A stretch of DNA of 64,000 nucleotides from positions 1,364,001-1,428,000 of the forward strand of contig NZ_JAGGMN010000001.1 of the NCBI RefSeq assembly GCF_017875325.1. The letters are read 5' to 3'. Positions 45,739 to 58,596 of the stretch are shown here, piece by piece (position 1 is the stretch's first letter; each line of letters starts with the position of its first letter). The stretch comes from Methanofollis sp. W23 (GTDB lineage: Archaea > Halobacteriota > Methanomicrobia > Methanomicrobiales > Methanofollaceae). A program made the position numbers and the translations under genes. The notes under the pieces are model-generated. The model worked only from the letters and a program-made list of their open reading frames with translations. It did not search any database and was not told the origin of the DNA.

Positions 45739-46647
45739 TGCACCCATGTGTTATCGGTTCTCACTGAACAAAAACCATTCCATCCCATGAAAATAGATGT
45801 TCTTTCGTGCATGAATTATGGCACGAAAAAGCGGCGATGAGACCCGGATCCATCCCGGAGAGATCAGGTCTGTTTGCGCAGGGATTTTCAAGAATTTATA
45901 TTTGAGGTCATCCCGAAACTCTTCAGTCCTCCCCCTCTCAGAAGATAGCAATGGATGTGGAGAAAATATCCTCCTCTTTTTGTTGCGCACCCATGCATTC
46001 ATCCCTTCCCACACCACCGCACCGGGGGACTGCGCCCCCGGACCCCCGGGATTGCAATTGGGACGGGAAGGCAGAGCGATGATCGTGAAGACGGGATGTG
46101 ACCCCCCGCCAATCTTCATCGGCGGGGGGTCCGGGGGGCGGCCAGCCCCCCGGTGGAAGAGAGCGTTCAAAGTTTCAGGAAGGGAGGCACACTCCAAGGC
46201 ATGAAGGAGAAAGTGCCGACCCCCCCTCTCCTGATGTGGGGGGAGTGAGGGGTTACCCTGAGGGCATCCCAACACTCTTCCGCCCTTCCCCCCAGAAGAG
46301 AGCGCCAGACATGGGGGGAAGATCTTCACCTCTGTTGGAGCGCACCCATGCATTCATCACCATCACCTTCACTCCTCTTTGGTCAGGGGGAGTGCCGCCC
46401 AGAATCCAGGAATACCGACAGAACCGGGGGGGGCAGTGCGATGATCGTGAAGAGAGGACGCAATCCTCAGTCAATCTTCATCCGCGGGGGTTCAGGGGGG
46501 TCTCCCCCTGGTGGAAGTTGGTTCAGAATTTCAGGAAGGAAGCACTTCGGACTGGGGGGATGTTCACCTCAGGAGAGTGGCGGGATATGCTCATGAAAAT
46601 GATCGTGAAGATCATCTCTCTGGGGTTCCATAATAGTTTGAATTCAC
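45739..46647. repeat. Repeat mosaic left of the nested 653-bp element
   Basis: No gene. It has 'gaggtcatcccgaaactcttcagtcc' (45906), a G/C block 'accgggggactgcgcccccgga' (46020), 'gagggcatcccaacactcttccgcc' (46258), 'tcaggaaggaagcacttcggac' (46530) and 'ctcatgaaaatgatcgtgaagatcatc' (46590) leading to the insertion point at 46640. The modules around 46530-46647 continue after the insertion at 47309. Confidence 0.65.
46640..46647. repeat. 8-bp target-site duplication, left copy
   Basis: GAATTCAC immediately before the left terminal repeat of the 653-bp element. An identical copy follows the right terminal repeat. Confidence 0.85.
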
Positions 46648-47300
46648 GGCTCTGTAGAATCTGGCATGAACCCCCGGCTCACGCATACGCGATGAACATT
46701 TCTTGTCACGTGGTCTCTCTTTTTCAAGACTGAGGAGCAGGAGGGAATCGTGTTCACTCGCAGCCCCTCCCCCTCTTCGTCGTAGGGGGGTCCGCGAGAT
46801 GACAGGGACGATTCTATGATCGGGACGGCACACCCGATCATCACGCCTTCCCAGACCTTCACGCCGCGGGCGCGGCGCCCGGACCCCGGGGAGCAAGAGA
46901 GAGTCGGGAAGGCAGAACGTCGATCATGCTGAAGGTATCTCTCTCATCTGCATGTCATCTTCAACGATATCTCCACCACATCAATTGCTCTCTTCTGGGA
47001 GGGGGAGGGTTGGAGAGTTCTGGGATGACCTCCATGAAAAGTTTGAATCCACCACGCCCCTTCTTGACCGACACGCAGATCATCTCACAAATGATCGGGC
47101 CGCTGCCTTCCCCTTCCAGTCCCTATCGCCATCCCGGCGCGGGGGTGCGGGAAGGCACGTCGATCTGATCGGCGACCCTCAGCGCAGGATCTTCACTGAC
47201 GTCTCGCACCGGGGGTACACCCCCCATGACGAGGACAGGGGCAGGGCCGCGGTGCCCTGTGCTGAAAGAGACCCATGATCATGCCCAATTCGACAGAGCC
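46648..47300. mobile_element. 653-bp non-autonomous element with terminal inverted repeats and 8-bp target duplication
   Basis: Left end GGCTCTGTAGAATCTGGCAT and right end, read on the other strand, GGCTCTGTCGAATTGGGCAT agree at 17 of 20 positions. Perfect GAATTCAC duplications flank both ends. The interior contains no convincing gene and includes copies of modules found in other spacers. Removing it and one duplication rejoins 46500-46647 to 47309-47350, restoring a module arrangement seen at 32110-32255 and 61085-61260. No transposase is encoded, so it must rely on one elsewhere. Confidence 0.85.
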
Positions 47301-47308
47301 GAATTCAC
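47301..47308. repeat. 8-bp target-site duplication, right copy
   Basis: GAATTCAC immediately after the right terminal repeat of the 653-bp element. Confidence 0.85.
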
Positions 47309-47578
47309 CAGATTCCTTCAAGAGTGAGATACAGATTGCAGATACATCTCCTGAATGACCGGCCCTTTGAGACGGCACGTCGATCAGAGGTGCCGCCCCT
47401 GATCGTCGAATCTTCACCGCCGTCCCGCACCGGAGGGTGCACGACCAGGAGACCCATGATCATGTCCAGTTCATCTCGTATGCCTGAGCCCGGGGGTTCA
47501 TGCCGGACTCTACAGGGGCGATAAACCCTCTTTACTCTGGAAACCCCATTCATTCAGAGAGTTCTGAGACAGGATATC
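47309..47578. repeat. Repeat segment and thiC upstream region
   Basis: It continues the module interrupted at 46640, then contains 'catctcgtatgcctgagcccggg' and 'tgccggactctacaggggc', ending at 47519 about 60 bp before thiC. The thiC promoter must lie within the last 60 bp or inside the repeat. Confidence 0.5.
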
Positions 47579-55248: not shown

Positions 55249-55297
55249 ACTGGGCCGCGGAACTCCTGGGAGTCGGTGTCTGGAATTGGGGGAATAG
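55249..55297. other. Short spacer to the 234-bp MITE
   Basis: Non-repetitive DNA ending with GGGAATAG (55290-55297), the left target-site duplication of the following element. Confidence 0.5.
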
Positions 55298-55531
55298 GGC
55301 TCTGTAGAAACCCTCACCTCTTGTGTGGGTGAGACATGTGTTCCCCCCCCCTTCCCTCCTCTTTGGCCGGGGACTCTGCCCCCGGACCCCCGGGACCACG
55401 ATAGGGTCGGGAAGGCAGAATAGATGACCATAAAGAGAGTGCTGCCGTCCTTGGCCTATCGTGTTGCGGGGGGTTCGGGGGGCGGCACGCCCCCCGCCAG
55501 AGAGATTCATCAGGAGGATTTCTACAGAGCC
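55298..55531. mobile_element. 234-bp MITE with perfect 8-bp target duplication
   Basis: Terminal inverted repeats GGCTCTGTAGAAACCCTC (left) and GGCTCTGTAGAAATCCTC (right, read on the opposite strand) agree at 17 of 18 positions. Direct repeats GGGAATAG flank it on both sides (55290-55297 and 55532-55539). The interior holds a G/C-rich stem region (ccgggga... near 55370 and ggcggcacgcccccc near 55480) and no gene. This is the clearest recent insertion of the F-type family in the window. Confidence 0.9.
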
Positions 55532-55539
55532 GGGAATAG
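55532..55539. repeat. 8-bp target-site duplication, right copy (234-bp MITE)
   Basis: GGGAATAG directly after the right terminal repeat; the left copy is at 55290-55297. Confidence 0.88.
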
Positions 55540-55559
55540 AAGATTTTTTCTGTTGTAGT

Positions 55560-55873
55560 GAGTTTGTAGAACCCCTTACCTCTTTCTGGTATGAGCCCCC
55601 GGCATGGTGTGGCGAGAAGATGCGTCGATCCGATTGGCCCCCCCTCAATCACAGAACCTTCTTCGCCATCTTGCGCCAGGGGGTTGCTGCCCCCCGGTCC
55701 CCCCGCGCCACGAGAGGTCGTGGACGGCACATCTCTCTTCAGGGAGTTCGAATATGCCTTCCCGTCTCTATCTTCCTCCCGAGGGTCTGGGGGCAGCGCC
55801 CCCGGCGCGATTCATGAGGGAAGGGGGGTGAGTCACGCGTGCACCCATAAAGGGTGAGGGTTTCTACAGAGCC
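55560..55873. mobile_element. Older 314-bp MITE-like element
   Basis: A degenerate left end GAGTTTGTAGAACCCC at 55560 and a clean right end GGTTTCTACAGAGCC finishing at 55873 enclose modules found in other copies ('gtcgtggacggcacatctctcttcagggagttcgaatatgcc'). The flanking octamers do not match, so any duplication has decayed or the ends belong to different insertions. Confidence 0.5.
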
Positions 55874-55891
55874 GACTTTTTTTATTTTACC

Positions 55892-56073
55892 GGCTCTGTA
55901 GAAACCATCCTCTTTTCATCACTTCAATCCCCTGTGAACCGAATCCATCACCTTCCCTCACGCTTGTGCCAGGGGAAAAACCCCGGACCCCCCCCCACGA
56001 CGAGGAGAGGCGGAGGCAGCGATGGAAAAAAAATCTTCACCGATTCTCCTGTCTTAAAAAAGAATGATCCAGC
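55892..56073. repeat. Truncated MITE-like segment
   Basis: It starts GGCTCTGTAGAAACC at 55892, followed by 'atcctcttttcatcacttcaatcccc', which matches 8210-8240, and 'ttcaccgattctcctgtc' (56034), which matches 15176-15192. It has no right end before the next element begins at 56074. Confidence 0.5.
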
Positions 56074-56197
56074 GGCTTTGTAGAAACCCTCACTTCCTCT
56101 CGGTGCAAGGGCGACGCAATCGCCTTCCCACACAATCACGCCGGGGGCGGCGAGTCCCCCCGTCGAAGAGAACCATCAAGAGGGGTTCTACAGAGCC
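56074..56197. mobile_element. 124-bp MITE with near-perfect 8-bp target duplication
   Basis: Left end GGCTTTGTAGAAACCCTCAC and right end (opposite strand) GGCTCTGTAGAACCCCTCTT agree at 16 of the first 18 positions. Flanking octamers are GATCCAGC (56066-56073) and AATCCAGC (56198-56205), 7/8 identical, as expected for a slightly aged 8-bp duplication. It is the smallest complete copy, with a single G/C-rich hairpin interior. Confidence 0.82.
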
Positions 56198-56205
56198 AAT
56201 CCAGC

Positions 56206-56780
56206 AACAAAATATTTTCATCCCATGTGCTTGAGACATGTTCTCGCCCCATGACGAATTCTACAAAGCCATTTCACTACAAAGTCGTCTCAAAAGTATC
56301 GGGTGATTGAAGGTCAGGATCCGGAAGTAGTTTTTACTGTCACCCGAATTGCTGAAACAATACCGCGCAAGGACACTTGAAACAGAGCATATCTCAAAAC
56401 CCTCTGAGGCCTGAATTGAAACACTCCTTTCCAGGAATTTTGAATGCGTATCTTCCTTCCGCCGGGGGGCGGCAGCCCCCCGGTCCTCCGCAGAAGATAG
56501 GGAGGAGGACAGTAATCCCTCCTTCGTGACAATCAAAGACGAAATCCTCCTCCTATCGCCATCCAGGGGGTTTCCGGGGGGCGCTGCCCCCGGCACGAGC
56601 GTGCGGGAAGGCCATAGGTGCTTCGAGGCTACGAGGGGGTGAGGACCTTTCAATCATCATCCATCGCTATCTTCTGTAAAGGTAAGGTCGGAGAGTTCTG
56701 GGATGATCTCACAGATACATGTCCTGAACTCAGGAATTCATCTCAACAAAGAAGTTCACAAAGGTTTTTTCAAAAACGAG
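56206..56780. repeat. Repeat-derived intergenic DNA between the 124-bp MITE and tRNA-Ala
   Basis: A right-end-like GAATTCTACAAAGCC ends at 56271. 'ctcaaaaccctctgag' (56393) and 'gaaacactcctttccaggaattt' (56418) match the inverse of the module at 30478. A G/C block (56464-56485) follows, then 'gagagttctgggatgatctcac' (56691). No gene seen. Confidence 0.5.
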
Positions 56781-58045: not shown

Positions 58046-58596
58046 ATTCATCTCAACACTGCGATATGAGATGTCGGAGGGTAAAAAGGGGTGGTCCTGG
58101 TTCTGAAGAATTTCCCTTCAATCGGCTCTGTAGAAATCATCTTGACGGCTCTCTTCGACAGACCCCCCGCGATTCGATTGGTGGCGGACGGCAATACGCC
58201 CTTCATGGCCGCGGATTGTACCTTCCCCGCCTTCTTTTCATCCCGGGGATCTCGGGGGCCGCCCCCCCCCTGGGGGCGATTCATGAGGGAAGGCGGGAGA
58301 ATCACACGTGCACACAGAATGGGCGAGGATTTCTACAAAGCCCTACGATCAGGATGGCACCTCTGATCGTCATGCCTTTGTTCCTGCCAGGGGCGCTCTC
58401 AAAGATCAACGATCTTCTCACGCTCGCAGCCACCTGGACCCCTGCGAAGATAATTGAATCAGGAGAGCACGACAGATGACCACGAAGAAATGCCCATCCA
58501 GAGAAGAGCCTCCAGGGCGGTGGTCTTTAACCCTCTGGAAACCCAATTTTTTCTGATGGCAGGCAGGCATACTGAGGAGCAGAGGAGGACCTGCTG
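58046..58596. repeat. Repeat-rich spacer between pncB and the methylthioadenosine operon
   Basis: It contains a decayed MITE-like element (58124-58342) and a second left-end-like GGTTCTGAAGAATTTCCC at 58099. The rest has no gene. Confidence 0.55.
58124..58342. mobile_element. 219-bp MITE-like element with decayed duplication
   Basis: Left end GGCTCTGTAGAAATCATC at 58124 and right end GATTTCTACAAAGCC closing at 58342. Flanks are CTTCAATC (58116-58123) and CTACGATC (58343-58350), matching at 6 of 8 positions. It carries 'gttgccgtcc'-like and G/C blocks typical of the family. Consistent with an older insertion, but the duplication is weak. Confidence 0.55.

Follow-up and report, generated by a model that had tools for sequence, protein, structure and literature searches.

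Archaeal MITEs usually share just short terminal repeats with their partner insertion sequence (IS), and Kamoun and others described IS5-derived MITEs in Methanosarcina and Methanococcoides, along with 19 MITE-like families for which there was no partner (PMC3852290). In Haloquadratum, mobile MITEs that go with a broken transposase were described by Dyall-Smith and others (PMC3119063). Here, we analysed a family of short repeats in Methanofollis sp. W23, found in a 64,000-nt stretch of its genome (hereafter the window), and conclude that they are very probably non-autonomous MITEs of a methanogen IS5-family IS that makes 8-bp target duplications, the parent IS having decayed in this host.

Three end types, A (GGCTCTGTAGAAACCCTCACC), B (GGCTCTGTAGAAATCCTCTTGATG) and C (GGCTCTGTAGAATTCGGCATGA or similar), recur in the family in the combinations A+B, A+C and C+C. 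The insertions and their target duplications in the window are as follows.

46640-46647, no strand: left target duplication of the 653-bp element, GAATTCAC
46648-47300, plus strand: 653-bp element, both ends of C type, GGCTCTGTAGAATCTGGCATGA and GGCTCTGTCGAATTGGGCATGA, with a perfect duplication
47301-47308, no strand: right target duplication of the 653-bp element, GAATTCAC
55290-55297, no strand: left 8-bp target duplication of the 234-bp MITE, GGGAATAG
55298-55531, plus strand: 234-bp MITE of the main ~232-bp subfamily, with A end GGCTCTGTAGAAACCCTCACC on the left, B end GGCTCTGTAGAAATCCTCCTGATG on the right and no transposase ORF
55532-55539, no strand: right 8-bp target duplication of the 234-bp MITE, GGGAATAG, perfect
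55892-56270, plus strand: probable outer, older element with a right end of C type, its ends having 0 and 1 mismatch
56066-56073, no strand: left target duplication of the 124-bp MITE, GATCCAGC
56074-56197, plus strand: 124-bp MITE with A and B ends, nested in the older GGCTCTGTAGAA-ended element
56198-56205, no strand: right target duplication of the 124-bp MITE, AATCCAGC, with one mismatch to the left copy
58124-58342, plus strand: possible further copy of 219 bp, its ends having 0 and 1 mismatch and its flanks CTTCAATC and CTACGATC differing at 2 of 8 positions, which is weak

The 234-bp and 124-bp insertions were recovered with exactly the coordinates, lengths and flanking octamers reported in a first-pass annotation of the window, which was made from the sequence alone. 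That annotation also counted more than fifteen other end sites in the window, a figure that stands only if one mismatch is allowed: on both strands, GGCTCTGTAGAA occurs 15 times exactly and 25 times with up to one mismatch. With up to two mismatches 41 end sites were found, against 3.95 expected, and none of 100 shuffles reached that number. G+C-rich inverted repeats (GGGGGCGGCA..CCCCCCGG) lie both within and outside the MITEs, at 55366-55500, 55676-55806 and 56456-56595.

Direct evidence of insertion came from empty sites, which are paralogous repeats within the host genome, namely intact copies of the repeats that the elements had hit. When the 124-bp element and one octamer were removed, the resulting junction aligned gap-free to other places of the host genome carrying a single GATCCAGC; a gap-free empty site of the 653-bp element was found in other copies of the repeat hosting it, and the 231-bp copy at C1:854325 likewise has an empty site in the same genome. 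The comparison of one insertion with a sister genome gave an alignment on one flank only. Judged from these alignments, insertion is seen directly for the 124-bp, the 653-bp and the C1:854325 elements. The probable outer element measures 379 bp as it stands, with the 124-bp copy and one of the 8-bp repeats inside it, and ~247 bp once these are subtracted; its flanks, ATTTTACC and ATTTCACT, differ at 2 of 8 positions and make a duplication that is weak if taken alone, and the flank of the inner copy aligns with other copies of the outer element. By the empty-site alignments, the cluster at 55298-56270 is a pile of insertions, one nested inside another. The repeat hosting the 653-bp element is another dispersed intergenic one (CATGAAAATGATCGTGAAGATCATC...CCTGAATGACCGG) with many genome copies; it occupies 46045-46647 and 47309-47400 of the window and is also present at C1:735006-735111 and elsewhere.

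Genome-wide, the exact end motif was found 265 times in 2.9 Mb (121 + 144 sites), and a reversed-pattern control gave 0 + 0. Forward sites seem denser in C1 0-1.8 Mb (~91 of 121) than in 1.8-2.87 Mb. The duplications were surveyed in 403 kb, taken as 94 pieces with consistent overlaps, which enclose 200 of the 265 exact sites; inward-facing ends were counted as a pair when less than 700 bp lay between them (n = 199), and the chance rate was derived from ends more than 5 kb apart. The flanking octamers had been set beforehand by the first-pass annotation as the test able to refute the family, and they showed a clear excess over random pairs: identical octamers flanked 34 of the 199 pairs (~0.13 expected) and octamers with one mismatch a further 23 (~1.0 expected), the rates among unrelated pairs being 0.065% and 0.49%, respectively. 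Only a duplication length of 8 bp gave this result, since lengths of 4-7 bp yielded 2-3 perfect matches and lengths of 9 and 10 bp none. The duplicated octamers are AT-rich and preferentially palindromic, G-A-A-A/T-T/A-T-T-C (pattern G-WWWWWW-C); the immediate flanks have a G+C content of 35-43% versus 58% overall, and the copies are mostly intergenic, in AT-rich DNA. Together, the excess of ends, the excess of matching octamers, the sequence family and the empty sites strongly support the initial claim of a family of MITEs flanked by 8-bp target duplications.

The surveyed 403 kb hold 57 elements with a perfect or one-mismatch duplication, 99-672 bp long and half of them 221-242 bp, and 35 of the 57 are united in one sequence family. 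From their 114 ends an 18-bp terminal consensus, GGCTCTGTAGAAAYCCTC, was obtained. Copies of 121-130 bp with A and B ends, including that at 56074, form a separate small class. The MITE sizes are below what a gene for a ~300-aa transposase needs, and the transposase searches found no DDE_Tnp_1-type match at any MITE of the host genome. Most copies diverge by 8-30% from their nearest relative; a pair of 229 bp, at C1:646168 and C1:1458575 in different 8-bp targets, shares 99% identity.

The 234-bp copy folds back on itself as a long hairpin (z -5.4 to -5.6 as RNA and DNA), and this fold, together with the mostly intergenic, AT-rich location, would suit repeats retained for a structural function of the RNA or DNA (terminators or processing signals, for instance) rather than for mobility. 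However, the duplications and empty sites make mobility evident, the consensus structure gains no support from covariation (covariation term 0; a two-sided change in 2 of 27 pairs), and an Rfam search returned tRNA matches only. A structural function is therefore very unlikely as the explanation of the family, and its version as a conserved RNA, with a strong fold but neither covariation nor an Rfam family, was rejected.

The first-pass annotation had looked for the parent among IS families that make 8-bp duplications, namely IS6, ISL3, IS66 or IS1595, and for IS6 the resemblance is real: the end GGCTCTGTAGAA is similar to the published IS6/IS26 consensus GGTTCTGTTGCAAA (PMC6807381), both starting with GG and having a G at position 7, and IS6 elements also make 8-bp duplications (PMC7986276). 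The transposase is a different one, however, and the IS240-type DDE domain (PF13610) was absent from the host genome in a search whose controls matched; an IS6/IS240 parent was rejected for want of such a transposase in the host genome. The IS6-like look of the ends is thus misleading. Autonomous elements with these termini and with 8-bp duplications carry instead the gene of an IS5-family transposase; the four proposed families are not supported, and a parent in any of them is extremely unlikely.

The clearest such autonomous element was found in Methanofollis formosanus (G004): it is 1008 bp long, has the ends of the MITEs (GGCCCTGTAGAAACCCTTCC and GGCTCTGTAGAATTCCTTTA) and a perfect duplication, GAACAATC, and contains an open frame of ~300 codons. 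Its product matches NCBIfam NF033579 (IS5 family transposase) with 237 bits (cut-off 140) and Pfam DDE_Tnp_1 with 76.7 bits (cut-off 23), and a Pfam search with the parent protein up to E = 1 returned DDE_Tnp_1 and a weak DUF772 only, with no ISL3, IS66 or IS1595 domain. As their signature, IS5-family transposases have the catalytic residues D, D and E and the spacing Y-(2)-R-(3)-E-(6)-K. The parent transposase carries this signature (D, D, E and the Y-R-E-K spacing), and in an alignment of five transposases D117, D190, Y239, R242, E246 and K253 are invariant. A decayed 954-bp parent copy with the duplication CGAAAATC is present in G002, and G011 has three copies of 1007 bp whose ends are of a variant type, GGCTTTGTTGAA, and whose duplications are perfect. 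In M. aquaemaris (G001:C1:467476-468385; L110, L119), a parent IS is split into two oppositely oriented parts, its first half lying on the minus and its second half on the plus strand, an arrangement such as an internal inversion would leave. Complete relatives flanked by 8-bp duplications were also found in public genomes of Methanoregula UBA154, BL5, Methanomicrobiaceae 284, ADurb.BinA087 and Methanococcoides alaskense, those of BL5, Methanomicrobiaceae 284 and ADurb.BinA087 being metagenome-assembled. M. alaskense contains both an IS of 998-1000 bp and a 132-bp MITE, which have a common 18-bp end, GGCTCTGTAGAAATCCTC, and no other common sequence; this end is the B end of the MITE family in the window. 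As read from the shared ends, this independent IS-MITE pairing is the best support for the parent assignment, and the parent is, by its ends, its 8-bp duplications and its predicted protein, an IS5-family element of ~1.0 kb.

In the host genome itself, a plain search with the parent transposase gave no significant match, and a profile of five relatives revealed one parent remnant at C1:1034446-1034610 (bounds alternatively C1:1034464-1034632). In this remnant residues 122-143 are joined to 260-292, the right end is intact and the left part is replaced by unrelated DNA; the parent was therefore once present in this genome. Neither the plain nor the profile search yielded any further trace of the parent transposase there, and in the sampled host stretches no end pair 700-3000 bp apart had a perfect duplication, as an autonomous copy would. 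The only DDE_Tnp_1 match of the host genome, C1:20983-21840, is another transposase, its frame interrupted by an internal stop, and was discarded as parent. The host assembly (G000) consists of 2 contigs with an estimated completeness of 99.7%, which makes a missed parent copy unlikely but possible. The MITE interiors showed no similarity beyond the ~18-bp ends to any of the parent copies, which speaks against the assignment in that their origin by simple deletion from a known IS finds no support. Accessible to direct reading are the ends, the duplications, the empty sites, a parent in sister species that matches the MITEs in its ends and in the length of its duplication and, apparently, the loss of the intact parent here.

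Within Methanofollis the exact ends number 265 in the host, 356 in G007, 102 in G004, 69 in G002, 41 in G001 and 0-16 in the others. Outside the genus, 1 of 108 genomes of the same order had a clear excess of ends; this genome (G020, family f5), with 33 exact ends, probably harbours a second MITE expansion.

We propose that a ~1.0-kb autonomous copy would supply the transposase, that this enzyme would bind the ~18-bp terminal repeats of a MITE in trans and would excise or copy it, and that the MITE would then be joined to staggered cuts 8 bp apart in an AT-rich target, preferably G-WWWWWW-C, where gap repair would produce the 8-bp duplication. Cutting and joining would follow the chemistry of IS5 enzymes, and the loss of the parent would have come after the burst. 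In the host, the MITEs would thereby have grown to well over 57 copies and the parent have shrunk to one truncated, internally deleted remnant. Since the parent has apparently decayed there, the present MITEs would be mostly stranded, unless transposase comes from outside. Such an outside supply, by a related IS5-type enzyme that a plasmid or virus carries, or else an intact parent that vanished only very recently, might keep the MITEs moving by means of a non-resident transposase; the two 229-bp copies that are 99% identical, the 34 duplications that remain perfect and the variation from 0 to 356 exact ends among sister species all fit such continued movement. The 8-30% divergence of most copies points instead to mainly old insertions, and the assembly holds no intact transposase of the parent kind, so that we regard continued movement as possible but rather unlikely. 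For stranded MITEs, too, the 99% identical pair means that activity or the loss of the parent may be recent; seen together with the perfect duplications, the pair suggests mobility until not long ago.

The parent has one peculiarity of coding. Its right terminal repeat (GAATTCTACAGAGCC, read E-F-Y-R-A) is coding: nine complete copies of the parent, drawn from several genera (L108, L109, L117, L124, L139, L141, L145, L148 and L246), have a transposase frame that remains open through the repeat; in all nine no stop lies within the IS, and the stop falls 4-163 nt into the target DNA. The tail of the protein therefore differs from copy to copy. We found no discussion of such a stopless transposase gene for the parent's group in a small literature search. 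Speculatively, the target-derived tail of each insertion might alter the activity of the enzyme and some tails might spoil it, a cost borne by the autonomous element and not by the MITEs; we consider this improbable, yet if true it would explain why the MITEs are so abundant and the parent is disappearing. The IS5 family includes a group with 8-bp duplications, the ISH1 subgroup. By its general description, this subgroup is like the parent IS in its IS5-type DDE transposase of ~300 aa, its length of ~1.0 kb, its 8-bp duplication and its archaeal hosts; the parent differs in its reading frame, which contains no stop codon and exits across the right terminal repeat.

The first-pass annotation had regarded the family as not described. 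As for the family itself this holds so far as a literature search for the end motif found one irrelevant match, but the kind is known, since archaeal MITEs that share only terminal inverted repeats (TIRs) or lack a partner have been reported (PMC3852290, PMC3119063). Closest are the MITEs of ISMac15, ISMma12, ISMbu10 and ISMba19 (PMC3852290, Table 4), which likewise have methanogen hosts, an IS5-family partner and TIR-only sharing and, at 140-252 bp with terminal repeats of 15-17 bp, resemble the Methanofollis family in build. For these MITEs the published table gives 5-24 copies and a duplication of 0 or 3 bp; the Methanofollis family has 265 exact ends and a duplication of 8 bp. HqIRS39 of Haloquadratum walsbyi, with its broken HqIRS12 (PMC3119063), is alike in that the MITEs spread while all matching transposase copies are broken; H. 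walsbyi differs in its halophilic host and another IS, and in Methanofollis a single truncated fragment remains, the intact parent having been traced to sister species. The orphan repeats of Methanofollis, otherwise annotated as anonymous intergenic repeats, can now be assigned to a transposase, and they offer a clear-cut and quantified example, within one archaeal genus, of MITEs more numerous than a parent that has nearly vanished. With 0 to 356 exact ends and intact or decayed parents in sister species, the birth, burst and stranding of MITEs become comparable across close relatives. Collectively, this is a large new family of a known kind, that of TIR-only archaeal MITEs outliving their parent, among which it stands out by its copy number and its traced parent.
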